Part shown: one piece after another, positions 29,451 to 64,000 of the stretch
How the letters are laid out: each line of letters opens with the position of its first letter
Numbering within the stretch: the first letter of the stretch is position 1
Assembly (NCBI RefSeq): GCF_963675165.1
Contig: NC_087382.1
Location: 6,372,315 to 6,436,314, forward strand
From: Halichondria panicea
Taxonomy: Eukaryota > Porifera > Demospongiae > Suberitida > Halichondriidae
Reading direction: 5' to 3'
Length of the DNA: 64,000 nucleotides
Made by a program: the position numbers and the translations under genes
The notes under the pieces: generated by a model
What the model was told of the DNA's origin: nothing
The model's database searches: none
Seen by the model: the letters and a program-made list of their open reading frames with translations, nothing else

Positions 29451-33541
<4,091 letters not shown>

Positions 33542-41766: not shown

Positions 41767-41836
41767 CCCTCATACATCCACCAGGTTGCTAACTTTGTAC
41801 TGCTCGTGATTGTGCCAAAGAATTGGTATAAAACTG

Positions 41837-42904
41837 ATGGCTTCATTAGACGGCGGTTATGACTATGTATTTGTTTCTTGTACAACAAAGTCGTTAGAGT
41901 GCTCAATCTGCCTATTGACTGTTCGTGATCCGCATGTCAGTAGTTGCTGTGGCAACCAATTTTGTTACGTTTGTATCAACCGTATCCAACAGGACGACAA
42001 ACCTTGCCCGCTGTGCAATGAAAGTAGTTTTACAACCTTCCTACACAAAGGTGTGGCAAGAGAGATCAAGGCTATGAAAGTGTATTGCCCTGAGAAGACG
42101 CAGGGTTGCGATTGGCAGGGGGAGTTAGGACAGGTGAAACAACATCTCAACCCAGCTCCTGGGTCAGGAGAAATAGGGTGCTCCTTTGTCATTGTCGATT
42201 GCATGTTCCAATGTGGTAGACAATTTAGACGTGGTTTGATTCGAAATCATGAGGCTGAGGGGTGTTCAAAACGACCTGCAAAGACATCTTTAGTGCAGGA
42301 TGAAATGGCTTTGCTTCGTGAACACTTAAACAGTTTGGCCACTGAAAATCTTTCATTCAAAAAAGATATTAAAGTGCTTCAACAGGAGAATCGAGATATC
42401 CAAAAAAGAAATTTGGGGTTGGAAGCACAAGTTTCATCACTTATGAAACAAGTTGAAATTCATAGTCCACCTACGTCAGTGCCTCCTTTCTACTTCACTA
42501 TTGTTAATTTCGAGCATTACAAGAACATTAACTATGAAATCACTAGCCCTTCTTTTTATTCTCATCTTGGTGGTTACAAAATGTTTCTTCAGATATTTCC
42601 CAACGGTGAGGGAGCAGGATTCAACACTCACCTTTCAGTACACTTGTGCATCATGAGAGGAGAATACGATGACAAGCTTCGATGGCCACTCAAGGCAACA
42701 ATTCATTTTCATATTTATAACTGTATTTCAAGAAAATGGGTATTTCACACTTTTATCAGTTTAAAGAACGTTATACAACCCTTAGAATGCATATGCAATG
42801 CTCCAAATGGTCTTTCAAAATTCTTGGCAAATTGGCGATTAACTCAAGAAATTTTGCACTGTGATAGAATTCGTCTACGAGTAGCAAAAGTGGAGCTGCA
42901 CTAG
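41837..42904 (+). CDS. TRAF-type RING / zinc finger / MATH protein
   Basis: A single uninterrupted exon of 355 residues, starting MASLDGGYD. The frame is open upstream to a TTG at 41810, but no earlier ATG exists. Order: RING finger (LECSICLLTV, CCGNQFCYVC, KPCPLC, residues 20-60); TRAF-type zinc finger region (CPEKTQGCDW, CSFVIVDCMFQCG, residues about 85-145); coiled-coil (about 158-210, ENLSFKKDIKVLQQENRD); C-terminal TRAF/MATH domain (about 218-355, ITSPSFYSHLGGYKMFLQIF, RIRLRVAKVELH). This is the layout of receptor-linked ubiquitin ligases that relay TNFR- or Toll-type signals. The RING position normally held by the zinc-binding His is Asn40 (CGN instead of CGH), so ligase activity is doubtful. 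The lack of introns, unusual among its neighbours, suggests an old retrocopy or an intronless sponge subfamily. Confidence 0.85.
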   Translation: MASLDGGYDYVFVSCTTKSLECSICLLTVRDPHVSSCCGNQFCYVCINRIQQDDKPCPLCNESSFTTFLHKGVAREIKAMKVYCPEKTQGCDWQGELGQVKQHLNPAPGSGEIGCSFVIVDCMFQCGRQFRRGLIRNHEAEGCSKRPAKTSLVQDEMALLREHLNSLATENLSFKKDIKVLQQENRDIQKRNLGLEAQVSSLMKQVEIHSPPTSVPPFYFTIVNFEHYKNINYEITSPSFYSHLGGYKMFLQIFPNGEGAGFNTHLSVHLCIMRGEYDDKLRWPLKATIHFHIYNCISRKWVFHTFISLKNVIQPLECICNAPNGLSKFLANWRLTQEILHCDRIRLRVAKVELH

Positions 42905-44938: not shown

Positions 44939-47900
44939 ATGGCCATGGGTTTATACAAGATCGCTTTTATTGCTTTTGTTTTATCCCTACTGTCACCTGA
45001 ACTGCAAATTGTGAATGCCCAAGGTACGTACATGTAGCTCTACTTAATGAGTTTGCATTATCTAGTCAGTTTATTTGCTGCTTTCTATTGTACACTTGTC
45101 TAACAAACACCTATTAACATTTTGTTTTTACTACAGACTATCTAGCTTTTGCGAATCGTCAATTTATCCATCGATTGGAACTGGGCACCTACAGTTTGAG
45201 CACTCTCTACACTGACAATAGTGGGAACTTTATCGCTTTTGACTACGACTACAGGTATTATAGTATGAGCTGAGATTTATTTAACTCTCATTAAAGTTGT
45301 CTATTGCTTGCTTCGTAATTAATTTTTAATCATATCTTTGGGTTACAAATCTACATTGTATGTGAGTTGTGCTTATGTCTCTATCTCTAAAGGCGTAATC
45401 TCCAGTATTGGACGGATGTTACCTCTGGTCCGACTGGTAGTATCTACAAGACCAACCTGGACGGTGGAGGATTCACTACTGTTATCAGTGTATCGCTAGA
45501 TGTACCAGGTACATTTAATTTTGCTATACATGCGTGTAAAGGTGTGAGAGTAGTTTCGTGGAGCTAATGTTTTGAAAAGTGTCTTTGTGAAGTACAGCTA
45601 CATTTTTTGTACATTGTCTGATTCCAGTGATTGCGCGTGCAGGCCTGCTTTTTACCAACTATATATTCTGCTGTATTAAATTTTAAGCAGTTACGATAAA
45701 GGCTGCATACAGATTCTCATACTACATTTGTTGCAGATGGTTTGGCAATTGACTGGCTGACAAACAAGCTGTACTGGTCTGAGGCCACCCCAGAAACCAT
45801 CTCAGTGCTTGATCTGGACAGTGGACACCGTCTCACACTCTTCACTCTGCCAGAGTCCAGTATACCTAGAGGGATAGCACTAGATCCAGCTAATGGGTGA
45901 GCAATGAGAACCAAATGAGAAGAGATGAAGGGCTGCATGATTGCTAGCTCCAATTATAAGCATAGGTGAAGTTTGGAATGGTCAAGCTACCCTAATTCCA
46001 AGATAGTTGACTATGGCTAAGGGACAATTAAGCTCGAACCACATTCAATTGCTCGCGTCGTACAGGGCAGGCCACCTAGCAACTACATTGTATCTTCACA
46101 CCTTAATTATTGCCTATAGAACTTGCATGATCTGGAGGAACCTTATACCATATATCACAGATTAGGTTTCGAATATGCGAGGTTAGTTTGATTGCTGGCA
46201 TGCCGTGACACTGCATTTTTTTTATTGCGAATTGCATGCACATGCTCACTCTTTGCTTTTCTTTCTTTTTGCGAATACTCGCACCGAAAGAACGTCGCAT
46301 TCGAAACCCAATATACATACAATAAATTGTTTGTGGTGACTATGATTTACCTGCAAACATTAACATAAAATGATGCGTTTCATTGTTGACAGCTACATGT
46401 TCTGGACTGATTGGGGTAGTCCTGGTAAAGTGGAGAGGGCGTACATGGATGGTACCGGTAGGATCACTATTGCAGACACTAATCTGGTGTGGCCCAATGA
46501 CATCACCATTGACTATGAGGTACGTAATTTAAGTAATGTTGGTCTCCTTGTCACATCAAACTCCTCCTAAAATTATACATGTATAACAGGTTTGTGGATT
46601 GGCTCGTTCTATAGTACGTAGTTGTCACTTGATTGACAGCTATCCTGCATACGTAGTTACACAAGTATTTAATAGTCAATGCATAATTATTTATACCCCC
46701 CACTGATTTTACAGCATGCAGTATATAGTCATGAATTTAGGATACATAACTATTGCATGTGTTTTCATGCTCATGCAAATTGAGTTTAATCATGATTCAT
46801 GACTTGCATACCGCAGTCCCAGACCCTCTACTGGGTTGATGCTAGTCTTGATAAAGTTGAGAGTGCTGGATATGATGGATCCAATAGACAGCTGCTGGTA
46901 TCTAGTGGACCGGGTGTGTATCATCCCTTCTCAATCACCTTCTATGATGGGACACTCTACTGGACAGACTGGCAGGTACATGTATATAGTAGCTTCATCA
47001 GTTGTCCATTTTTGTGTGTGCATGTGCAGTAGAGGTAAAGACTTCCCTGCATGATACATGTATTGAGAAAACCAGTCCATCAGGTACCAGCGCTAGTCTA
47101 TTTGCACCCAAGTTTGGCACTGTCTCAAATGGTGTGCATGCATGATTGGTAGTGCAGCAATGAAAGTACCCATTGGTTGCACTGAAATGCGCTGAGCACA
47201 CTAAAATGTCGCATATACATGTAACACGCTTTTCAAAAAAGTGTGCTATACGCAACATTTTAATGTGCTCAGCACACTTCATTTTTTACAGTGTGGTACA
47301 CATGAATTGAACCTTTGCTTTAACTGTGTTTGTTTATTTACAGGATTTGGTCGTCACAGCAAATTCTCTTGAGTCCAACACGCTCAGCATTGTATTCAGT
47401 GGACTCAGTACACAACCAACGGGCATCGAGGCGATCTCTGCTAGTAGGCAGGAAATCGGTAAGACTAGTTCGTGCTATATAATAATTATAATATATACAT
47501 CTTCCTTTCCGGACTATACAAGCCAACAGTACGTATTGTTTTTCAGTCTAAATTTTTTCGCTCTTTAATTATCTTATGAAATCATTGATGAAGTTGTTGG
47601 TGCTAACAATTTGTTCACAAACAGTTTCTACTCCATGTGACACTGCCAATGGTAACTGTGAGCAGCTGTGCCTGCTCGGTGCTGGTAGGACAGCCACGTG
47701 CGCGTGTGTGGAGGAATACACCCTAGCCAGTGATGGAAGGACCTGCGAGACTCCAGGTAAATGCAGCGCAACTATCATTACCGATATACGATAATTATAT
47801 ACGCATGCACGTTAGTTTAATGCAGCCTCTTACAGAATGATGTTTTCATTCTATTCCATGCATCGAATGAACAAAATGTTCATCAACTCATAATATTTTC

Positions 47901-50900
47901 GTTCACCCCTATAGCCTATTTGGGATTTGCTAATCGCTATTTCATTCATCGACTGGATCTCAGCACTTTCAGCCTGCAAACGCTCGTCACTGGTTTGAAT
48001 AACAACTACATTGCCTTTGACTATGACTACAGGTACGAGCCAGTGTTAGTATAATTACGTACCCGTGTATGGCTTTAATTTGATATCTTCCTTCTCTGGT
48101 ATTTTGAATGCTACATGATGATAAACTTTTTATCTTGTTCGTAGGCGTAAGTACCAGTACTGGACTGAAACCTACTCCACACCCATAAGTAGTATTTATA
48201 GGAGCAATCTACAAGGAGAAGATGTTCATCTTATCATTAGCGGCTCACTAGATGTGCCAGGTACAATTATAGGAGAGAAATCGGTTACCAATAATATTTT
48301 ATTCTCCCAACATCGATCATGAATATCACGGTGTACCAAATGGTGTTGAACTAAAAAAATTTTTGTGCTGACAGTTTGAGATTTGAGTCATACGTATAAG
48401 TATCGCTGGCTCTTATTGATCGTTAATTGTTAGTTACTTCCCTGCAGATGGTTTGGCGATTGACTGGCTGACAAACAAGCTGTACTGGACTGAGGCCACC
48501 CCAGAAACCATCTCAGTGCTTGATCTGGACAGTGGACATCGTCTCATACTCTTCAATCTGCCGGAGTCCAGTATACCTAGAGGAATAGCACTCGACCCAG
48601 CTAATGGGTGAGTCCCAAACCTAGTATTTACGTATTTTATGGTTGCCTATATAATTATGTCCATCTAGTACATAACTGTTGGTATATTATACCGTGCTGT
48701 GTTGTGTTGCTCTATACTGCTTAAACATAAGTATGTACACGTATATGAATAGTCTACATGAGCAAATTTGCACTTTACACAAAACACAGACTTTAGCATG
48801 ACACATTATAAACTTGCACGTAAACGTTTCATAGAATACAACGTGCGTCACTATTGAACCAATGCAGCTATATGTTCTGGACTGATTGGGGTAGTCCTGG
48901 TAAAGTGGAGAGGGCGTACATGGATGGTACTGGTAGGATCACTATTGCAGACACTAATCTGGTGTGGCCCAATGACATCACCATTGACTATGAGGTTTGT
49001 TCAACTTTCAACATCCAAGTACATACTTCTTTCCTGTTGTTTGCCTTCTGTGCTAGCTACTGTGCTTACAATTGTGAACTTGAAAACAGTTTAATTTAGA
49101 CTGAAGTATCGGTATGAAGGCTGTCTATATACTAACTGTTTACTTAACAGTCCCAGACCCTCTACTGGATTGATGCTAATCTTGACAACGTTGAGAGTGC
49201 TGGATACGATGGATCTAATAGACAACTCCTGGTGTCCTCTGGTGTGTTCCACCCGTTCTCAATCACCTTTTTCGATGGCACCCTCTACTGGACAGACTGG
49301 CAGGTGAGAACAAAGCCAGAGCATGTCCTGTAGAGCAGCTTAGATTTATTGTTAACTTGCTGAGGATAAGCATTCATCGAGATCGTAGTTTTAAAATTAG
49401 TTGTAAGCTGTAGTAGCTTTAAAGTGTGTGCATCTAAACTTCGATCCTTGATCAAGGCTTTTGTTGTGATGTTCACGTTAACAGGTGGATGCTGTGTATG
49501 CCATGGCTGTGGGGACCAACATACCTAGTATTGTCTTCAGTGGACTCACTACAGAACCAATGGGCATTGAGGCAATATCTCCAAACAGACAAGAAATTGG
49601 TGAACAAGATAATTATGTATTATTATGATTGTATATGTAGTACCAAGAGTGCATGAATATTATGTGTTAACACAGAATAATACGATACCTTAAGAACTAC
49701 GTGTATAATATACCATACCGTATAGCGGCTAATTTTCGTGGGGCAAAATATTCGTGGTTTTCGTGGTTGGAGGTCTGACTACGAATATTTTACCCACGAA
49801 TGAAGCGACCTTGCCTACCTTTACCTGTAGTGCAAGCTAAGCAACCACGAAAATATTACCCACGAAATGTCTCAATATTGCTGAACCACAAATATTTTGT
49901 CCCCCGAAAATTACCCGCTATACGGTAGGACTCACAAAGCACATTAGGAGTGTATTACAATATTCCTGACAATTAGGAGCATGCATAATTAATGTTTTAT
50001 CTATTTTCTCATATAGTTTCTACTCCATGTGATACTGCTAATGGTAACTGTGAGCAGCTGTGCCTGCTTGGCGCTGGTAGGACAGCCACGTGTGCGTGTG
50101 TGAATGGATACACTCTAACCAGCAATGGAAGGACCTGTACTGCAGTTCAAGGTACACAATAATGATTGATAATGAATCGGGTGCTGATGCGCAAGTCTTG
50201 ACAGATTGGAGTAGCCTTCAGAGTAAGCAAAAAACAAGTCGTAACTCGAACAAAGCTTTGGTTTGCAAATCCATGAATCTATAACACGAGGAAAAACTGG
50301 CTAGAAGCTATTGCTGGCGCCTACATGTACATTGCACCGGTAGTACACACACTGACGCCTACATTGCACCGGTAGTACACATACACAAACACACTACTGT
50401 ATACTTCGCCTGAGCATGCGCACCGAGGCATGGCTAAAATCAGAATGAATGAATTGACCACTGACAAGTATGTGTGTGTTGTGAATCAGTAGCGTATGTA
50501 CATGTTATTACATGTAGCTGTGAGCTTGTGACTCGTACTTATTACATTTACAGATTATCTTGTGTTTGCAAATCGTCAATTCATCCAACGTTTGGAACTG
50601 GGCACCTACAGTTTGAGAACTCTCTACACTGACGTTACCAGAAACTTTATCGCATTTGACTATGACTACAGGTAAGTACTCTGCAGTTGGACATGCATGC
50701 AGTAATTATTCAGGATGTTATGTCATCGGATTTGCATCATTGTGTCATGTACAGTTGCTTCTTAATTATAGCCAATTTAATGCACTTTACTCTGACTTTG
50801 ACCCCCTTTTGCAACATTAATTAGGCGTGATTTCCTGTATTGGACTGATGTAGGCTCTGGGAGTATTTTCAAGAGCAATCTAGAGGGAGGGAGAGTGACC

Positions 50901-53900
50901 TCAGTCATAAGTGGATCTCTGCAAGTGCCAGGTACAGTCGTCATTACCAAAGTGTGCATGTCCATCTATTTATGACATAATGTTCTTCATTATACTGTAA
51001 AAGGGAAGTATAAGAAATATATATATATATATCGGCTCACTTTCTGTACAACTCCATGCAACTAACTGATTTTTGATTGAACACTCTATAATTATACCCC
51101 TCTCGTAAAAGATGGTTTGGCGATTGACTGGATCACAAACAAGCTGTACTGGACTGAGGCCACCCCAGACACTATCTCAGTGCTTGATCTGGACAGTGGA
51201 CATCGCCTCACACTCTTCACTCTGTCATCATCTAGTGTACCTAGAGGGATAGCACTCGACCCAGCTAATGGGTGAGCAAGGACACATATACACATATATA
51301 ATGTCGATCCCTGTGGTACATGTACAATGTACGTATAATTATGCATATTTCACGAACTACACGGATTCATTACACCTGATATTCAATACCCCCTTAACCT
51401 TTAATCATGGGCCTATATTGATTAAGGACGTTGCAGGATTGAATTCCAATCTGTCTATGCTTATGTTGCAATAGCGAATACATTGTATGTTGTGACTATT
51501 CTTATAATGTATTCATGAGTCGGTGTCCCATATGGATATAGCTTACATTTATACCGTGTACCTAGGGAAATTTCTGATCTTTGGTCATCAATTCCAGCAT
51601 TAAAATGTGCTCATGTCCACAACGTAATACATTGTTGTGCACAACTGTTCTTTGGCCGTCTTATGAAATAAGTCAGCTACATGTATCCGACTTTGTGACT
51701 TTTCAATGGGAACTTCGGTTCTATAATGATCAATCGTTATAAACAGCCTATAGCACCAAAGCCAGCTGTATACACTGTGGTAAATCCATATTTTAGCAAT
51801 GCATTCCCTGTTTCTCAGCTGTCATATTTGTATGTACGTATTCATGCAGCTATATGTTCTGGACTGATTGGGGTAGTCCTGGTAAAGTGGAGAGGGCGTA
51901 CATGGATGGTACCGGTAGGACCACTATTGCAGACACTAATCTGGTGTGGCCCAATGACATCACCATTGACTATGAGGTACTGGAAAGAGATTAATGCACG
52001 TACTAAGATAACTACATTGTTCTTTGGTGGCAGTCCCAGACCCTCTACTGGCTTGATGCTAGTCTTGATAAAGTTGAGAGTGCTGGATACGACGGATCCA
52101 ATAGACAGCTGCTGATATCCTCTGGTGTACTTCACCCGTTCTCAATCACCTTCCACGAGAATGCTCTCTATTGGACTGACTGGCAGGTGAGGGGCAGGAG
52201 TTGCAATCATCGTACTGTTTACTTTTAAATTAGGGTCATAGCCTATTATATACAGGAGCATGCAGATACATAATACACTTACATGTTAATACTGAATGAA
52301 ATGTCTGATGAAGAACACACTTGCTATGATATGTTAATGTGTTTCTAGTCTGATGCAGTGTATATGAAGACCACTGACTCCAGTACTGCAAGTATTGTGT
52401 ACAATCGCCTTGGCACGGAGCCAATGGGGATTGAGGCTGTCTCCACAAGTAGACAAAGACTCGGTGAGTGGAGCCCTCGCTTCAAATAGTCTATACATAC
52501 ATGATTCCAGTCTCTGGTACATTAAAGTTTGCTTTAGTTCCGTAAGGTTAATGTAAACACTGTCCAATATTAAAGTCTCCCTATCTATGAATGAAATGTA
52601 CCTGTACCTGCACGGATGAATGGTAAAACACATCACCTAGTACTTCAGTAGGGACGTAGTCAGGAGACGTGGTCATCTGTGAAAGACAATTTCATTCACT
52701 TAATAACCTGAGGTATTCTCTTATATACTAGTTTCGAATCCATGTGACGCTGCCAATGGTAACTGTGATCAGCTGTGTCTGCTTAGTGCTGGTAGGGCAG
52801 CCTCCTGCCGCTGTGTGGAGGGATACACTCTGGATAGTAATGGAAGAACTTGCAGTAAGCCATCTAGCTCATACTGTACATGTATATACTGAATGGATAT
52901 CTAGTACTTTTATTGCAATGTACGTAGTCAATTTTACTCTATCGATCATGCAACGTGTAGCCGACAGATTACAATTATTCCACAGATGTTATCACTACCG
53001 TGACACCTCCTTCCCCTACAACTCCAATTCAATATGGTACTAGTTAAACGGATAATTTTCTTTACTGTGTATAGTATACGTATAGATTGCTTGTGAACGG
53101 TTTTCAAGCTCACAAGGGTGATTGTTGTTGTTGCTGTGGAATGTGATCCACCTACATAAACCTACTGTACGTATTTTACAGGCTCATGCCGCAATGCTGG
53201 GTTCACTGACTGCTGTCTAGGGGGAGACTGCCAGGGCTTGCCCAGAAGCTGTTTCTGTGACATCTCCTGTGTCATCCTACAGGACTGCTGTGAAGACTTC
53301 TTCCTCATCTGCACAGGTGAGTAAGGAGTACTTCAGTCGCCGCATTTTTTTCTAAACCAATAATTATTTGTGTGCCTGTATAAGATCAGATCAGATCAGT
53401 ATAATAATAATTTATTATAACATCACTGTTAAATGCATGGTATACAGTAGCTATATTGCCTGCATGGTCTGTATGTAGGGACAACTCTGCATGGCTAGAA
53501 TGCAGATTCAGTATGTCAGTGTTCCCTACTTGTTTTATACATAGCATACACCTGCTCTTCGCTGCTTTCTATTCCCAATGGAGCCATCACTTATAGCCAG
53601 GAGAGCACGTCCAATCGCTATGATATTGGAACTACTGCCACCTACTCTTGTAGTGGTAGGTTTTACTTGAGTGGGGGCTCCACTAGGAGCTGTACTAGGT
53701 CTGGAACAATGGGCATTTGGGATGGATCAGCATCTCAATGTTTAGGTTAGTTATTAATAATTATTGTCAAGAAATTTTTAGATACCATGTTGACAATGAT
53801 ACGTACCTCACTTCGCGGAAATTGTGGCTTTAGTCAAGATCGAATTAATTGATTCGAAGACCATAGATCTGCATGTGTAATTTTTGCTTTCACTCGATTA

Positions 53901-56900
53901 CAAGCTGTAGAACAATAATTATAATATTATAATTATTGTTTGTATATAATTATTGTATAAATTGTATTATTATTATATTGCAGTATTTTACTTGAAACCC
54001 GATTGTTATTACCACTCACCCTCTCTGTTGTTACTCTTTGCTTTACATACAGCAATTACATGCTCGACTCTGAATGCTCCTGCTAATGGACTTGTCTCCT
54101 ACGACCCTGATTTGACTGCTCCATACGAGTTTGGTACAACTGCTACATACATCTGTACCACTGGCTTTGGACTGTTTGGTGGAAGTAGGACAAGAGAGTG
54201 TGTAGTGTCTAGTTTGGGAGGCGGGGGATGGAGTGGAACCACTCCCACTTGCGGAAGTGAGTTGATTACAGAAGTATCCCTAACTCTTTAACCGTAAGAA
54301 AGAGCATGCAATTTTGGGAGTATTAGTAAAATTATGTAGCCTCCTTCGACCCAATTAATAAGGAGTGAATGTGGGGTGGGGATGAGGCTACTTTTAGGCT
54401 GACAAAACAGTAATGAACTTTCGATCGCAAGAATTAGATGTACATACATGTAGTAACTTATGCAAAAGGAGCCAGTCGAAATAATTACACTCATCCATAA
54501 TTTCAGGCATCACCTGCCCCAACTTGTCACCCCCAAGCAATGGTCAAGTGGCTTTCATTGCTGGACCACCCTTCATTTATGGCACAATAGCCACATACTC
54601 TTGTAATGAGGGTTACACAATCAGTGTAAACATACCTCGAACATGTGGAGGAGAAGGCTTAAGCACTAGCGGAGTGTGGAGTGGAGAGGCTCCATCTTGT
54701 ACAGGTATGTTAAACAGTTGCTGATGCATACATTATACATGCACATTCCTTCCAAATCATTGTTTACGTTTATGTTTATTACTGACAATGTTGTCTATAG
54801 TCTAAATACCGCACATACATGTATCAACAGTATGTAAAACGTACACTGTTGTAAGTATCATTTGACACATATTTTTGGTGCAGCCATTTCTTGCCCTGAT
54901 CTGATTTTTCCGACCAATGGGCTGATTGCTTTCTCTTCTACGCCACCTTACTCGTTTGGGACGGTGGCTACCTACAGCTGTGTGAGTGGCTTTGGACTGA
55001 GTGGGGGAGGGCGAACAAGAACATGTGGAGGAGATGGTTCCAGTCAGGGAGTATGGAGTGGGCCACCTGTCAACTGTGGAGGTAAGCTATCTTTGGAATA
55101 ATTATTATGTAGGTACATACGTACGTACTATTATAATCATCCAGAAATGTGCTCTTTTTAAGTGTAATTATAAGCCATGTGTACTGTATAGCGGCTAATT
55201 TACAAGGGGCAAAACATATTTTAGTTTCGTTTGAATCCCTGCATGAACACAAATATTTTACTCAAGAACAAAGCGATCATTGACCACGCCCATCTAGTTT
55301 TGTAAGCCCATTCATCAGCCTGCAGTGCACACAACCACGAAAATGTATCCACAAATACACAAATGTTTTGACCCCATGAAAATACCACTAGGTATTTATG
55401 TAAGTGTGTATTTACTTCAAGTCCTTTTTGTTTTGTCTTCTCCAAAAATAAGGGAGGTTATTTGAGTGGGTGAGCATACATACATGTATTTCATTCTAAT
55501 TACTTGCAGCCATTACTTGCCCTTCATTGGGTCTGAGTAACAATGGAGTCATAGAGTACAGTCCAACCACCACAAGCCCCTCTGATTTTGGGACAACGGC
55601 CACCTACACATGCAACGAAGGATTCTTTTTGGAAGGAGAAAGTATATTAACTTGTGGTGGGGATGGTCTCAGTGTGAACGGAGTATGGAGTGACCCAGCC
55701 CCAGTTTGTGCTGGTACGTACATTTATTATCAACTCGTTGTGCTGGACAATAAGCTGTGTCGCAATTGTATAAGTTATGTCTTGTTTCGTCTACAGCTGT
55801 CATGTGCCTTGTATTGCTCTATCCTGATAACGGTGTGATAACGTATTCCGAGGACTCCATTCCTGCTGCTGGATTCATGGAGACGGCTACGTACAGCTGC
55901 AACCCTGGCTTTGGGCTGTCCGGGGGAGACACTGTGAGGACCTGTGTTGGTGCAGCTGGAAGCTCTGGCGAGTGGACCGGAACTGCACCCACTTGTCAAG
56001 GTATAATGCAGTCAAGTTAACAGAAAAGGGGCTCTAAGACAAACAGGGATATAATTATATGAACACGCTAGCTTAATTTATTTCTCCTGAATATGGATAG
56101 TTTGCTCACTCAAATTACATTGCTGCAATACTATTACATCTTTCCTCCAGCTATTACTTGCTCTGCTCTCTCTCCTCCCACCGATGGAAGAATTAGTTTC
56201 TCTACGGATACCACTCCCCCTCATGTCTTTGGGACGGTGGCTACGTTCACTTGTGCTGCTGGTTTTGCCCTGAGGGGAGACACCACAAGAATGTGTGAGG
56301 GAGATGGGACAACTACTAGTGGAGTGTGGAGTGGGTCATCTCCAACTTGTAGTGGTGAGCAACAACCTACATATGCTGCGTATGGCGCACAATGGTGTAT
56401 GATTAGCACTGCCAACATAAATCTAAATTGAAAGTGTTCCCGAAAAGAGAGGTGACACCACATATAATTGTTACCACGTATAGAATTGACAAAATAAACA
56501 AGTTAGCTTTTTGCATGTGATCTCAATCGGTCACTGTCAAAATATTTTCTACAGACCATGCAAAGCACAGACTTTTGTTATCTGGCTAAATATGTATAAT
56601 GTCTAATATGTCTTCATTGCAGCATACATGTGTAGTTCACTGCCTCAAATCTCCAATGGATTGATCAGTTACAGCCCTGACAGTTCAAGTCCATTTGATT
56701 ACGGGACTATAGCCACATACTCTTGTAATGGTGGCTTCTACCTCATGGAGTTGTCAATGAGAAGTTGCAGTGGGTCAGGCTCACTTGTACAAGGTTACTG
56801 GTTGGGACAAGAACCAGAATGTGCAGGTTAGCTTATTGATGCTATAAGTAAGACGATCAGGCTTTGAGAAAAGAGCACTGTCCATTGACGTAATATACAT

Positions 56901-59900
56901 ATTTATTATGATTATTATACAGCATATATGTACGTATATAGTATTGAGTGCCATGAAAAGCGTCTATTGTAATGTCAGCGAGAGTACTTCGTTCAAAGCC
57001 CTATATCTGGACTTCTTTTGATACCTATATTTATATGCAGCTATTGTGTGTACCAGTCTGGCTCCTCTAAATAATGGATTACTTTCTTATGGACCAGACA
57101 CAGCTTCTCCATATGACTATCAAACAACTGCTACCTACAGCTGTAATGAAGGATACGGACTGTTTGGTGGGGATAGGGCTAGACAGTGTGATAGTTCAAG
57201 TCCAGGGGATGGAGGGTGGAGTGGAACTACTCCCACTTGTGAAAGTAAGTCTACCAACATTTATACCAGCTGGTTGATTGATCAAAAGGGGGAAGATTAC
57301 ATTTTCTCAAAGTTCCACGGTTGAAGTTCATTGTCTATGTGTGTACATGTACAGTGTACTCTCCGAATAGCGGACACGTTAGCACCAAAATCTCTGTCCT
57401 TTGTTCGGAGAGTGTCACTCAGTTAAAAGCTTACAATCAATTTTTGTATTGTAGAGTGTATTGAATGATGTTTGCAATGTGTAACTATGAGCATAAAAAC
57501 GTAAGATGATTATGTGTTATATTGAGAAAGGCTATCCAGCATTGATTAGTTACATTGATTTTTTACCATGAAAAGGACAGATGTATGTATATAGTTGTAC
57601 AATAATTATCCTCGAACCAGGCTGCTTCAGTAGTAAATTCCGGCAGTCTCCATGACATCACTCCAGATCATACCCGAGAGTGACCCGCCCACTGTCCGTT
57701 AGCCAAGAACGTGTTCCTGGAAATTTAATGGAACCAGCAACCATGCATGTCTGTAGTCCGGAAATGGGAGAATTCGTTATTCAGGAGTGTAGTTGGTGCA
57801 GTTGATATGATGTCGATCTGTACCTTGAGCTGTATCCGTTTATAATTATACTGTAACAGTGTCAGTTCGCTATTCGGAGCGTCCGTTAATAGAGAGTTAC
57901 TGTACTGTATGACTGTTGGGTAAACCCACCATTACCATGTAAAAGTATGGTACTTAGCTTGTTCAGCACAATCACGCCATGCGTACATTTATATCTCCTT
58001 TGCAGCCGTTATTTGTCCTAGCTTATCTCCTCCTACCAATGGACGAGTTACATTTTCCTCTGCTTCACCTTATTCATCTGGTACTATGGCTTCCTTCTCT
58101 TGCAATGAAGGCTACGGGCTGAGTGACGGAGACGGGATGCTAACTTGTGGAGGAGATGATTCTAGTCCAAACGGTGCCTGGAGTAGAGTGGTTCCTATTT
58201 GTGAAGGTGTGTAGGTCCTATAGGTAACGATTTATCACTCTTTAATGCTTGGTTGCAGCTATCACCTGTACTGCTCTGATACTTCCGACCAATGGGATGA
58301 TTGCTTTCTCTTCTACACCACCTTACTCGTTTGGGGTGGTGGCTACCTACAGCTGTGTGAGTGGCTTTGGACTGAGTGAGGGAGAGACAACAAGAACATG
58401 TGGAGGAGATGGTTCCAGTCAGATTGGAGTATGGAGTGGGCCAGTTGTCAGCTGTGGACGTACGTAATGCATGATACGTAGGTTACGTTAACATTGTGCC
58501 AAGTTTAACTTTGAAAACAATCCTCAATTGTCTTTTCCCCTCTCTTTAAGAATCTTGATTAGCAAGTGTACAGATAGCTACTGTAGGTTGCACGTTCTTT
58601 TATTGCAAAGTTTATTAATTTATCATAATTATCATACTATTTTGATAAACATGCAGCCATCACTTGCCCTTCATTGAGTCCAATCAACAATGGAGTCATA
58701 GCGTACAGTCCAATCGCCACAAGCTCTATCGACTTTGGAGGAACGGCTACCTATACGTGCAATGAGGGATTCTACCTTACAGGAAGTACTGCTCAAACAT
58801 GTGGTGGAGATGGGTCAAGCGTGGGTGGATCTTGGAGTGATTCACCTCCAGTCTGTGCAGGTACCGTTTATGAGCACATGCATGAAGATCAACAAAACCT
58901 AAATAGGGAGCTTATACATATTAGCATATTGTATACACAGCTAATAAACAGGGCTTATTGTGATTTAGTATGTCATTTCGTATTAACTGTGCCAATGAAC
59001 ATTTTTGGTGCATCATCTCACTTTGTGCTCTCTTCATACAGCTATAATGTGCCCTGTGCTGACCTACCCTGAGAACAGTGTGATAATGTACTCTGAGGAC
59101 TCTAGCTCCTCCCTTGATTTTATGGAGACGGCTACGTACAGCTGCAACCCTGGCTTTGGGCTGTCCGGGGGAGACACTGTGAGGACCTGTGTTGGTGCAG
59201 CTGGAAGCTCTGGCGAGTGGACCGGGGTTGCACCCACTTGTCAAGGTAAGACTACATGTAGAAATAATAGTCTGGTTGAATACCGTATATCGGGTTGAAT
59301 GCAATGTTCTATTGATTATGAATTGCCGAGTTTTTGCAATCGGAAGAAGTGCAAAGACTGAGCATGCGCATGCAATTTCCCATGCTCTGCATTCATGCAA
59401 TTCAAAATGCAATCAGCTATCGATTAAGCAACCCGATATATGGTGTATTACACACTTTACGTTCTAAAATTACAACATACAGATCAAACTACGTACAGTA
59501 AGTTTGCCTGTGTTTGCATGTGCATGTGTGCATTGTTCCTGAGTATATACCAATAATAATTATTATTTCTTTGTACAGCCATCACTTGCCCTCCCCTCTC
59601 TCCTCCTTCAAGTGGTAAAGTTAGCTACTCCACTGACTTAGGGTCTGACACAGATTCCAGTTACAGCTATGAAACAGTAGCTACTTTCACTTGCATTACT
59701 GGGTATGGAGTGAGTGGAGATACCACAATAACCTGTCTAGGAGATGGAGCTACTCCAAATGGAGTATGGAATGGGTTTTCTCCAATCTGCCTTGGTGAGT
59801 TATAAATTTGCCAATGCACATTACATGTATTATATTTTTAAGCATGCAGATATTATAGCGCCCAAAAAACTAACGATTTTCCGGTGGCACATACATACAA

Positions 59901-62693
59901 GAAATTCTGTAATCAGATTGGCGCTTAAATGGCGTTTAGCGTTAGAACGTAGATAACCAATCCATGAGGCTATTTTTACATTCTAGCCTATTATATATAT
60001 ATACGCCAGCCATTAACAATTTGAAGTAGCATAAAAAGCTACTGTAGTTGGCGCTCAATTGGAGCAAACATTTAAAGAGTGGCACTGTAAATAGAAATTA
60101 TATGCAGTTTATAAAAAGTGAACTGCTAACTGTTATTACTCTCTTGCAGCTTATACCTGTACAATGCTGCCGCCATTTCCCAATGGAGTGATCACGTACG
60201 ACCCTGATAGATCAAATCCATTTCAATTTGGCACGACTGCCTCCTTCTTCTGCAACGAGGGGTTCTACGTGAGCGGTCATAGCTCTATTAGAATTTGTAA
60301 TGGATCTGGAGCCACCAGTTTCTGGGAGGGAGAACAACCAGTATGCATCGGTGAGTGTGCTGGAGCATTGCATTTTAGTGTGGAGATACAGTGTTGTCAC
60401 TGCTATCTGTGATTGACTTCTTTTGATACCTGTACAGCTACTGTGTGCACCAGCTTGGCTCCTCCAACTAATGGATTTATTTCATTTGGACCGGATACAA
60501 CTTCTCCGTATGACTATCAAACAACTGCTACCTACGTCTGTATTGAAGGATACGGACTATTTGGTGGAGATAGGACTAGACAGTGTATTTCAGGAAGTGC
60601 TAACATTGAACAGTGGTCTGGGATTGCTCCAATGTGTGAAAGTGAGTGCTTACGGGGATAATCGATTGCATTTGCTGAAACCTTGTTACAATGATGCTTA
60701 GAAGTTAGACAACGATGTACTATATAACTTATGGGAATAAAACCCAAATGGCGGATGCATTGTTCTGATTAAAAAAATACCTGAGGCTTCTACATCTCAT
60801 AGAAATTAATACATGTAGCTGATCGACGTACATTGCATGGATACATAGTTGCTCATTGCATGGGCTATAAGCGTACAAATCAAAATGTGAGCATGTCTTG
60901 TTTTTATGGAGCGCAATATCCCAATGCAGTACAGTACTCATAGTGGTGTGACCAGTCAGATCTCATGCTGGTTCATATAATTATACTTTGTCTGTGTTAA
61001 ATTAATGCGTTTGGCTACTCACTTCCCCTCCAGCCATCACTTGCCCCTCCCAGTCCCCACCTATCAATGGACGAGTTGGCTTCTCCACTGACTTTCTCCT
61101 AACTCACGGTACAATGGCTACCTTCTCTTGTGATGTGGGCTACGGACTGAGTGGGGGGGATATGATGACAACATGTGGAGGGGATGGCTCTGATCCATTT
61201 GGTACTTGGATTGGAGCAGTCCCAGCATGCGAACGTGAGAATAAAGTGCTCAAGTTTGTGCAAGCAGCATGATTGTTGAGATGTATTGGTCTGTCTGTAT
61301 GTGGTTGTTATTGATAGCAACATGCAAGCATGTGTACCTGGTAAACCTGGAAATGTATACATAACTTTATACGTAGTGAAATCTGTCTACATGTGTAACA
61401 TACGTTTATGTAAATTGCATATTCTCTTATTTGCAGCAATCACCTGCTCACCCCTGAGCTCTGTCACTAACGGAAACATAGTGTATAGCCGTGACACTAC
61501 AACCACCTTTACCTTTAGTACAGTTGCCACCTATTCATGCAACGAGGGATTTCTGTTGCTAGGAAACAACGAGCAAAGATGTAGTGGTGATGGGAGCAGT
61601 GTTAATGGCCTTTGGAGCGGTGGTTCAACTCCAGTTTGCACAGGTGTTGTGTTGAAAATCAAAGTGTAGTTACTTCACCTCTCATTTTCTTCAGCTTTTT
61701 CGTGTCTCAAATTATCTCTCCCCATAAGTGGAGTGATAACCTATTCTGAGAATGCCATGGGCTTTGTGAGTACAGCCACATACAGCTGCAACTCTGGCTT
61801 TGGGCTGTCCGAGGGTGACACTGTAAGGAAATGTGTTGGTGCAACTGGAAGCTCAGGGAAATGGAATGGGACTGCACCCTCTTGCCAAGGTATGTATATA
61901 TATAGCCAGTGTATACCTGAGCGTGTGCCACTCCCTAGCATTTAAATTGTTACACTTACTTCCCAACAGCTGTACTAGATGTGAGTGAACAGAGAGCTAC
62001 TATTGGAGGTGGCGTGAGTGGTAGCCTACTCATCATCATCGCCATAGTGGCTATCTTGGTGATAGTGCCTGCTCTGATTGTCTACAAGCGTCGAAAAGGA
62101 AAGGATGATTTGTAAGTTAATGATTATGTAGTCTTAAATATGGCCTCTAATATGGTTGCCATGCACTATAGCCTCATTCCCATCCCGACTTTTTCCTATT
62201 GCCACATGCATCCTGGTTAATTTCACTGTTGCATGCACACAAAAACAGCCGCCCACAACGATTTAACAACGACCCTGAACGTGTAGATGATAATAGTTAC
62301 GAGCCGGTGGTTGCCAAGTTGAACCCAGCATATAATCACATTCAAGCCGAGGGAAATGTTATGACAGTCGAGAATCCATTGTATGGAGAAGATTTACACG
62401 GTTACGAGAATGTCACTGAGTATAGTCAACACGATCTTGACGATGATGGGTACGATCCCATTGACAATGTTAAAGAAGATTATGGAGACAAGAAAAACTA
62501 TGGCCGCCCCATTGATAACATTAAACAGTACTATGATGAGGTGGTTGACAGCTCTGAAGAGGATTTTGATGATCCCATGGAAAATAATGATCATGTTAGT
62601 GTTATTGACAGTGAAGGTTACGATGTGATTGCTCGTCGTGATTACGAGAACAGCAACCCAGTTTATGCTGATGACATTACACTAATTAACTAA
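44939..62693 (+). CDS. Giant LDLR-B/EGF/somatomedin B/sushi receptor with NPxY tail
   Basis: 45 exons, 7467 nt, about 2488 residues, type I membrane protein. Start ATG 44939 gives signal peptide MAMGLYKIAFIAFVLSLL. Exon ends were set by GT-AG and phase; exons 1-24: 44939-45023, 45137-45254, 45393-45508, 45737-45896, 46393-46519, 46817-46975, 47344-47458, 47625-47756, 47915-48032, 48145-48260, 48448-48607, 48868-48994, 49151-49303, 49485-49599, 50017-50151, 50554-50671, 50825-50931, 51112-51271, 51850-51976, 52034-52186, 52349-52463, 52732-52854, 52986-53036, 53182-53316. Exons 25-43 are one sushi each; exon 44 (61970-62111) holds the transmembrane helix; exon 45 is 62249-62693. Like LRP-family receptors it pairs YWTD propellers with EGF and an NPxY tail, but lacks LDL-A repeats and adds a somatomedin B domain and 19 sushi domains. 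Likely an endocytic or adhesive cell-surface receptor; ligand unknown. No frameshift or internal stop was met. Confidence 0.9.
46165..46308. mobile_element. Short TIR element in receptor intron 4
   Basis: GGTTTCGAATATGCGA at 46165-46180 is inverted at about 46295-46308 (TCGCATTCGAAACC), with a two-base gap. Non-coding interior. Confidence 0.5.
47191..47273. repeat. Hairpin in receptor intron 6
   Basis: GCTGAGCACACTAAAATGTC at 47191-47210 is inverted at about 47247-47273 (AACATTTTAATGTGCTCAGC) with few mismatches. Arms about 26 bp. Confidence 0.65.
47915..50151 (+). other. Receptor module 2: YWTD propeller plus EGF
   Basis: Exons 9-15, residues about 338-645, with the same seven-exon pattern and the same phases as module 1. 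Blades: YQYWTE, LYWTEATPE, MFWTDWGSPG, LYWID, LYWTDW. EGF: CDTANGNCEQLCLLGAG then CACVNGYTLTSNGRTC. A MITE sits in the intron before the EGF exon. Confidence 0.9.
49717..49927. mobile_element. MITE, ACCGTATAGCGGGTAATTTTCG family, copy 3 (receptor intron 14)
   Basis: About 211 bp; matches copies 1 and 2 nearly throughout. It lies between the sixth blade exon and the EGF exon of module 2. Confidence 0.85.
50554..52854 (+). other. Receptor module 3: YWTD propeller plus EGF
   Basis: Exons 16-22, residues about 646-946, same exon pattern; exon 17 is 9 nt shorter than its counterparts. Blades: FLYWTDVG, LYWTEATPD, MFWTDWGSPG, LYWLD, LYWTDW. EGF: CDAANGNCDQLCLLSAG then CRCVEGYTLDSNGRTC. Exon 23 follows with a Thr/Pro linker (ITTVTPPSPTTP). 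Confidence 0.9.
53182..53316 (+). other. Receptor somatomedin B domain
   Basis: One phase-1 exon, 45 residues, eight cysteines arranged as in somatomedin B: CRNAGFTDCCLGGDC, then RSCFCDISCVILQDCCEDF and a final IC. The CFCD.SC and DCC.D motifs are diagnostic. In vitronectin and related proteins this knot binds protease inhibitors or receptors; here it joins the propellers to the sushi arm. Confidence 0.85.
55181..55395. mobile_element. Degenerate copy 4 of the ACCGTATAGCGGGTA family (receptor intron 28)
   Basis: TGTATAGCGGCTAATTT at the left, then GGGGCAAAA, CAACCACGAAAATGT and CCCATGAAAATACC follow the family consensus with many changes. It is an older insertion than copies 1-3. Confidence 0.6.
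57351..57904. mobile_element. TIR element in receptor intron 33
   Basis: ACAGTGTACTCTCCGAATAG, followed by CGGACA, at the left; inverted at the right as CTATTCGGAGCGTCCGTTAA then TAGAGAGTTACTGTA. No coding interior. It accounts for most of the longest intron in the sushi array. Confidence 0.6.
61970..62693 (+). other. Receptor transmembrane helix and tyrosine-rich tail
   Basis: Exon 44 encodes a short stalk and the helix SGSLLIIIAIVAILVIVPAL followed by stop-transfer KRRKGK. Exon 45 encodes about 147 acidic residues with three NPxY motifs (LNPAY, ENPLY, SNPVY) and two YxN motifs (YENV, YENS). NPVY is the motif used by the LDL receptor for coated-pit uptake; YxN after phosphorylation is a Grb2-type SH2 site. 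Other tyrosines (YDPI, YDEV, YDVI) lie in Asp/Glu-rich surroundings. Confidence 0.85.
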
Positions 62694-63703: not shown

Positions 63704-64000
63704 CTGCAAAAAAATCAGTGTACACTGAACCCTGATGCATAATTTATAGCAACTAGAATAGTCACTAATAACCGTCGCATAATTGGAAGAGCGCTTCAAT
63801 TCGAGTATAAAAAGCCTGCAGTTGAGCATGCGCTGAAAATAAAGATACGCTTATAGTCTAGTAAGCGCTAATAATCCAGTTTCTACGGTAGTATGCCATG
63901 CACCTCTTAAGTCACTATCAGCTTACTGGGTACGATCTCAAGCAATAAGGCAACAAAGTTATAATAATAATAACTATCCCTCAACTGTTTTAGTTATTAA
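63704..64000. other. Window edge
   Basis: No further exon of the minus-strand gene was identified. A GTCGCATAATTGGAAGAGCG/CTTCAATTCGAG phrase at 63773-63803 resembles the interior of the 39943-40280 element family. Confidence 0.35.

Follow-up and report, generated by a model that had tools for sequence, protein, structure and literature searches.

A predicted receptor gene joining an LRP-type propeller head, a somatomedin-B-type knot and a nineteen-sushi arm

Introduction

Receptors of the LDLR and LRP kind carry cytoplasmic NPxY-type motifs that recruit PTB adaptors and clathrin, and the tail of the receptor described here follows the same logic as in LDLR and LRP1. With LRP5/6 and the other LRPs it also shares tandem YWTD propeller-EGF units and a single transmembrane (TM) segment. 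Unlike them, it shows neither LDL-A repeats nor a PPPSPxS motif, and it places a somatomedin B (SMB) knot and a sushi arm between the head and the membrane.

The arm itself recalls the complement receptor CR1 (CD35), which passages of PMC10605242 describe as built of long homologous repeats of seven SCRs; a sushi array in seven-sushi long repeats, together with a TM segment, is found in the present receptor too. According to the same passages, however, CR1 has 30 sushi domains, a 43-residue tail and no propellers, whereas the receptor has 19 sushi, a 148-residue tail and propellers, and the seven-sushi likeness is taken here as convergence.

Comparable mosaics are found among sponges. In the Stylissa carteri proteins covered by excerpts of PMC4772301, SRCR-like domains are combined with LDL-module and YWTD domains, so that scavenger-receptor domains and YWTD propellers meet in one mosaic, although the partner there is SRCR, unlike in the receptor; a term search of that text gave no occurrence of 'sushi' or 'CCP'. 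A figure legend of PMC8242945 names SMB-like, NIDO and sushi domains among those of Halichondria receptors. The aggregation receptor of Geodia cydonium is described, in passages of PMC4557014, as a combination of SRCR and SCR. It has in common with the present receptor a sushi arm on a membrane receptor, but its head is SRCR where the receptor has LRP-type propellers and SMB (PMC4557014, same passages).

Among the matches listed from the open-licence PMC literature no description of the order propeller-EGF-SMB-sushi-TM was found, and the layout is likewise absent from the passages seen of PMC10855680, PMC6208332, PMC4302439 and PMC6526912. Mosaic receptors as such are known from sponges; the layout described here looks new within the literature searched. 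A first-pass annotation had called the architecture undescribed-looking, which within that literature holds for the order of domains, but the gene is not isolated, as the cassette of its head recurs on contigs C5 and C7. The gene presents a concrete case of modular receptor building (LRP head, SMB, SRCR-type sushi arm), probably in an early-branching animal lineage, and it shows that a long repeat of seven sushi is not confined to the vertebrate complement receptors.

Gene model and order of parts

Within the window (the whole stretch of DNA analysed, 64,000 nucleotides) exons were rebuilt from splice-site anchors. This gave 45 exons at 44,939-62,693 on the plus strand, with an ATG at 44,939, a TAA ending at 62,693 and a coding sequence of 7,467 nt (divisible by three) for a product of 2,488 residues with a single terminal stop. 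All 44 introns are GT...AG with continuous phases and range from 51 to 761 bp (median 184 bp). The rebuild thereby reproduces the exon count, introns, phases, length and residue number of what the first-pass annotation had presented as a clean gene. The parts run in the order signal peptide, three YWTD propeller-EGF units, linker, 10-cysteine SMB-type knot, 19 sushi, TM and tail:

44939..45023 (+), exon 1: start codon and signal peptide (12-residue hydropathy maximum 2.68)
45137..47458 (+), exons 2-7: YWTD beta-propeller 1 (Pfam, motif count)
47625..47756 (+), exon 8: EGF 1, 6 Cys (Pfam, Cys count)
47915..49599 (+), exons 9-14: YWTD beta-propeller 2 (Pfam, motif count)
50017..50151 (+), exon 15: EGF 2, 6 Cys (Pfam, Cys count)
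50554..52463 (+), exons 16-21: YWTD beta-propeller 3 (Pfam; sequence matches to structures of LRP4, LRP6 and LRP2 for the unit that it forms with EGF 3)
52732..52854 (+), exon 22: EGF 3, 6 Cys (Pfam, Cys count)
52986..53036 (+), exon 23: Thr/Pro-rich linker, 51 nt (rebuilt gene model)
53182..53316 (+), exon 24: 10-cysteine somatomedin-B-type domain (Pfam below cut-off, alignment of relatives)
53545..56354 (+), exons 25-31: sushi 1-7, long repeat block A (Pfam, repeat identity)
56623..59794 (+), exons 32-38: sushi 8-14, long repeat block B (Pfam, repeat identity)
60150..61889 (+), exons 39-43: sushi 15-19, block C, slots 1, 2, 3, 5 and 6, without slots 4 and 7 (Pfam, repeat identity)
61970..62111 (+), exon 44: juxtamembrane stretch, TM helix, then basic residues (hydropathy)
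62249..62693 (+), exon 45: 148-residue cytoplasmic tail and stop codon (motif scan)

On this layout, which is the one first claimed, Pfam, the cysteine and motif counts and hydropathy agree; run on the 2,488-residue product, Pfam returns Ldl_recept_b, FXa_inhibition-type EGF and 19 Sushi, with SMB below its cut-off. The reading that we prefer, and to which we give an even chance, is that of a type I single-pass receptor assembled through phase-1 exon shuffling, most likely for recognition and uptake, or for cell adhesion.

The sushi arm and its closest relatives

Pfam places Sushi on 19 stretches of the product (E 1.1e-124), and every sushi exon encodes four cysteines and one tryptophan, which confirms the long arm. 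Sushi domains that lie seven apart have a mean identity of 59.7% (n = 12); the averages at offsets 1-6 and 8-12 are 41.1-45.5%, and 0 of 20,000 random orders reach such a period at any offset from 1 to 10. The arm falls into blocks of 7+7+5 (sushi 1-7, 8-14 and 15-19) and is, on the evidence of its sequence, an array grown in blocks of seven.

The genome searched comprises 131 Mb in 39 contigs. With the sushi block as query, 102 of 2,472 candidates were scored, and among the matches listed the closest sushi outside the receptor gene ('closest' referring to those scored) form an array of 59 at C3:6400.8-6417.7 kb, where those of the slot-6 type reach 70-74% identity and the others about 43-62% to the best match. 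A second sushi cluster, with up to 62% identity, is found at C5:3425-3507 kb. Upstream of the C3 array there are SRCR exons (six among the matches listed, one piece matching SRCR at 4.7e-32), and downstream of it come a piece resembling fn3, which at E 0.0031 falls below the cut-off, and an ORF that carries NPTY; no TM segment was recognised in this locus. Taken together, C3:6396000-6426000 (-) is a candidate giant SRCR-sushi gene or gene group. Its order, for exons read singly and a gene that is putative, resembles the SRCR plus SCR of the sponge aggregation receptor as given in passages of PMC4557014. Pfam lists no SRCR in the receptor gene, which has only the sushi of the SRCR-SCR combination. 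Over the genome SRCR has at least 213 matches (150 of 1,364 candidates scored). Excerpts of PMC4772301 count 1,339 SRCR-like domains in Amphimedon, 2,166 in Stylissa and 1,328 in sea urchin, and because the sea urchin is also SRCR-rich this abundance alone is no proof of a sponge. The compact genes, the genome size of 131 Mb and the very many sushi and SRCR candidates nevertheless suggest a demosponge, and this sponge-like content supports the invertebrate setting first proposed.

These relations bear on what the receptor may do. It could serve cell-cell adhesion or self-recognition in the manner of the sponge aggregation receptor, an LRP head standing where that receptor has SRCR and uptake being a secondary role; we consider this reading rather unlikely. 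The Geodia receptor, described in part of PMC4557014 as SRCR with SCR, gives a precedent, and the closest sushi array among those scored adjoins SRCR exons. Sushi similarity, however, informs the origin of the arm and not its ligand, the receptor head is unrelated to SRCR, and the SRCR and sushi exons on C3 make one gene only as a candidate.

The first-pass annotation had proposed a scavenger or opsonin receptor of an invertebrate complement-like system. As a complement-type opsonin receptor, the protein would bind with its arm a C3-like thioester protein deposited on microbes, as CR1 does. The seven-sushi repeat unit is as in CR1, and one A2M-family locus, C13:572000-585000 (-), carries a GCGEQ thioester motif, with three of four pieces matched (TED 2.9e-10, A2M 4e-17, receptor domain 2e-5). 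That protein may equally be A2M/CD109-like, though, and nothing ties its locus to the receptor. Moreover, a block of seven domains can arise through unequal crossing-over, the closest sushi among those scored adjoin SRCR exons, and sushi is very common in the genome. Of 4,112 first-look candidates for PF00084, 150 were scored, with no C6 match among those listed, and this search is no guide to which genes hold sushi. The anaphylatoxin (ANATO) domain gave no genome match in a search that recovered no control, so that its absence does not follow. The opsonin role is unsupported as it was stated, and we regard it as improbable.

The SMB-type knot and the recurring cassette

The domain of exon 24 scores below the Pfam cut-off of 23.1 bits, both within the whole product (Somatomedin_B, 16.7 bits, E 0.0092) and alone against PF01033 (20.5 bits). 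A query of linker plus SMB protein hit the genome in 11 places (E<=0.001), the receptor gene itself included; of the other ten, eight lie within about 1.5 kb of propeller matches and two, on C12, do not. In an alignment of 14 SMB-type domains, that of the receptor and 13 from other loci, 10 cysteines are invariant in all 14, and each of the 14 matches PF01033 at E<=1 (best 1.1e-5). The PF01033 profile run over the genome gave no match at E<=0.001, but recovered no control either. Against PDB sequences exon 24 has five matches at E<=1, four of them plant defensin-type (best 0.0084) and the fifth vitronectin (0.77), and a single-sequence AlphaFold model of the exon was uninformative (mean pLDDT 47.3, pTM 0.20); neither lends the assignment support. 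We read the domain as a 10-cysteine variant of SMB in spite of its score, because the 13 related domains elsewhere in the genome support that reading. The knot first claimed thus stands as SMB-type, with the qualification that the receptor copy itself falls below the cut-off. Another SMB mosaic is seen at C12:4757400-4759300 (+), where two SMB-type domains are followed by sushi (1.5e-9) and Kunitz (2.4e-18).

As judged by these comparisons, the head of the receptor is a recurring propeller-EGF-SMB cassette that is also present on C5 and C7 with other partners. The following are exon-level readings with Pfam run on single pieces and TM-like stretches assigned by eye, and not full gene models:

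C5:3258-3265 kb: Ser/Thr-rich stretch, 2x(propeller-EGF-SMB), linker, TM-like stretch (exon-level scan)
C5:3272-3278 kb: NIDO (5.6e-16), SMB, propeller, EGF, SMB, FN3 (6e-6), TM-like stretch, tail ORF with NPGY; of its two FN3-like pieces run against Pfam, one went unmatched
C5:3384-3390 kb (+): NIDO (5e-6), SMB, propeller, EGF, SMB, SMB, FN3-like (8.9e-5, below cut-off), TM-like stretch
C7:4791-4804 kb (-), first part: propeller-EGF-SMB, second propeller and SMB with an EGF-like piece by eye
C7:4791-4804 kb (-), second part: Ig (3.1e-11), EGF (5.3e-9), second Ig by eye, HRM-like (3.6e-5, below cut-off)
C7:4791-4804 kb (-), last part: GPS (8e-10), 7tm_2 (5.1e-7, 4e-6)

The locus at C7:4791000-4804500 (-) is an apparent adhesion GPCR with LRP-type propellers at its N-terminus. 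The series NIDO-SMB-propeller-EGF-SMB-SMB occurs twice on C5, at 3283000-3289000 (-) and 3384000-3390000 (+), about 100 kb apart and with propellers 93% identical. These loci have the same cassette as the receptor, and the nearest continues, as the receptor does, to a TM-like stretch. They differ in their arms, which are absent, NIDO with FN3, or Ig/EGF/HRM/GPS/7TM. In bacterial and viral collections, 29 and 37 pattern stretches yielded no confirmed relative.

In a tree of 16 of the 23 propeller groups (those with at least 110 of 264 columns; the seven dropped include the N-terminal parts of receptor units 2 and 3) the three receptor units form a clade with support 0.951. Its sister (support 0.994; 61-63% identity) is the propeller at C5:3260.6-3262.2 kb, the second of the C5:3258-3265 kb locus, which is followed there by EGF and SMB and, past a linker stretch, by a TM-like one. 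The deep nodes are weak (0.256, 0.588), and gene conversion among the receptor units alone may have drawn them together in the tree and so inflated their clade. The SMB exon exit and the TM exon entry are in phase 1 both in the receptor gene and at C5:3258-3260, all 19 receptor sushi exons are 1-1, and the 11 SMB entries shown are consistent, by eye, with phase-1 entry. A phase-1 SMB exit and TM entry with 1-1 sushi exons are the footprint expected of a cassette insertion.

The same phases raise the question of whether head and arm might belong to two genes that only the model joins, one for a propeller-EGF(-SMB) protein, secreted or anchored, and the other for a sushi-TM receptor. Exons 22-43 all start and end in phase 1 and fit one another by default, and therefore the matched phases are weak evidence for one gene; sushi arrays and propeller-SMB loci also occur separately in the genome. 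In addition, an ATG at 52,756 opens a 95-residue ORF in another frame of exon 22 whose N-terminal hydropathy (3.05) exceeds the 2.68 of exon 1, and of the eight ATG ORFs of at least 15 residues in 52,464-53,545 three others reach 1.8-2.0. The ORF at 52,756 is judged to be chance, because the proper frame of exon 22 encodes a six-cysteine EGF. Against a division, the introns between exons 22 and 25 measure 131, 145 and 228 bp, near the median, and a terminator, a promoter and a signal exon would hardly fit into them. Furthermore, the EGF-SMB order recurs on C5 and C7, and SMB followed by sushi on C12. No AATAAA or ATTAAA is present on the plus strand in 52,569-56,493, a weak argument given that the first after the stop codon is only at 63,838, more than 1.1 kb away. 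Two genes are thus highly improbable, and the receptor is very probably one gene.

The LRP-type head

The hallmark of the LRP family, a six-bladed YWTD propeller followed by an EGF, is present in the receptor. Ldl_recept_b matches 13 stretches (E 7.2e-103) and FXa_inhibition-type EGF three (E 5.6e-27), with five YWTD-like motifs in each of the three propellers and six cysteines in each of the three EGF exons. Among PDB sequences the third propeller-EGF unit scores 258 bits with LRP4 and 232 with LRP6 (single-unit chains) and 199 with the best unit of LRP2, and lower with LDLR (183) and nidogen (138). Pfam lists no LDL-A repeats in the product, in agreement with the earlier claim that such ligand-binding repeats are missing, and none of the 41 genome matches to LDL-A (PF00057) is on C6. 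A separate LRP with LDL-A and propeller is located at C13:1134-1147 kb.

The three units are unevenly alike. The central exon (slot 4) is 98% identical, with a synonymous divergence (dS) of 0.04-0.08; dS is 0.17-0.25 in slot 3, 0.40-0.62 in slot 5 and 0.35-0.76 in slot 7, and goes from 0.52 (one pair) to saturation in slots 1, 2 and 6. Coming from exons of 35-67 codons, dS values are rough, and they were saturated for two of the 21 propeller-exon pairs and one of the 12 sushi pairs. At the DNA level slots 3-5 (window 45137-52854) are 82-98% identical between units, with slots 1, 2 and 6 and the introns diverged. Intron pairs between repeat copies are mostly unalignable; 4 of 16 score slightly above the best of 20 shuffles and 12 do not. 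The likeliest cause is an exon-limited gene conversion that homogenises the central propeller exons and would keep the heads alike; strong synonymous constraint is the alternative.

A role as an LRP5/6-like Wnt co-receptor is scarcely credible and LRP5/6 identity was rejected, since for all the LRP4 and LRP6 scores there are three units and not four, no detected LDL-A and no PPPSP motif, and the LRP5/6 of the sponge Halisarca keeps four propeller-EGF units, three LDL-A and a PPPSPxS tail (passages of PMC8235796).

The transmembrane segment and the tail

The most hydrophobic 19-residue window of the receptor, residues 2313-2331, is the TM segment. The tail that follows has three NPxY motifs, at 2366, 2383 and 2477 (NPAY, NPLY and NPVY), a number reached in 5 of 100,000 shuffles of the tail. 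The NPxY tail that had been claimed is therefore above shuffle expectation and, together with the matched YWTD propeller-EGF units, upholds the LRP-like logic proposed for head and tail. By the PTB rule a hydrophobic residue is expected at -5 of NPxY; NPLY has one, and NPAY and NPVY are without. Thirteen of the 148 residues are tyrosines, and besides NPxY there are two YxN and six Yxx-hydrophobic motifs. Used as a query, the tail has two matches in the genome, both the receptor gene itself, and because it matches only itself its function rests on short motifs. The genome has nine PTB-domain matches at exon level.

Proposed origin and mode of action

The preferred reading, of a receptor built by phase-1 exon shuffling, would derive the gene from a propeller-EGF-SMB-TM ancestor that gained a sushi cassette between its SMB and its TM and whose propeller-EGF was duplicated. 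In the protein the three similar LRP-type propellers could act as a multivalent head and the SMB knot as a rigid joint, with the 19 sushi holding the head several tens of nanometres off the membrane. Clustering of ligand would then lead to tyrosine phosphorylation and to the binding of PTB (NPxY) and SH2 (YxN) adaptors, and from there to uptake through clathrin, to engulfment or to adhesion signalling. The most likely function is long-reach capture or adhesion by way of PTB/SH2 adaptors; its biological role would most likely be recognition with uptake, or else cell adhesion of the kind proposed for the sponge aggregation receptor, which shares the arm type. Should microbes or self ligands be what the receptor captures, it would connect endocytosis of the LRP type with recognition based on sushi.

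The related loci allow a broader and more tentative proposal, which we put forward as possible without leaning on it. In such a combinatorial system the propeller-EGF-SMB head would be swapped among chassis (bare TM, FN3 stalk, adhesion GPCR and, here, a sushi arm of the aggregation-receptor type). The receptor would be a head-swapped aggregation receptor whose three heads, kept alike by exon-limited gene conversion, form a multivalent detector of one ligand that serves to recognise self/non-self or microbes. The same loci make the roles of head and arm testable against each other.

Neighbouring sequences in the window

Apparent exons of a cathepsin L-type protease lie at 30400-32900 (-), with a stretch of 10 residues that holds the active-site Cys; the single piece run against Pfam had no match. 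The upstream neighbour of the receptor gene, at 41810-42904 (+), is an intronless-looking ORF of 364 residues that has, beside a RING-like stretch below cut-off, a TRAF/MATH match (1.4e-18).
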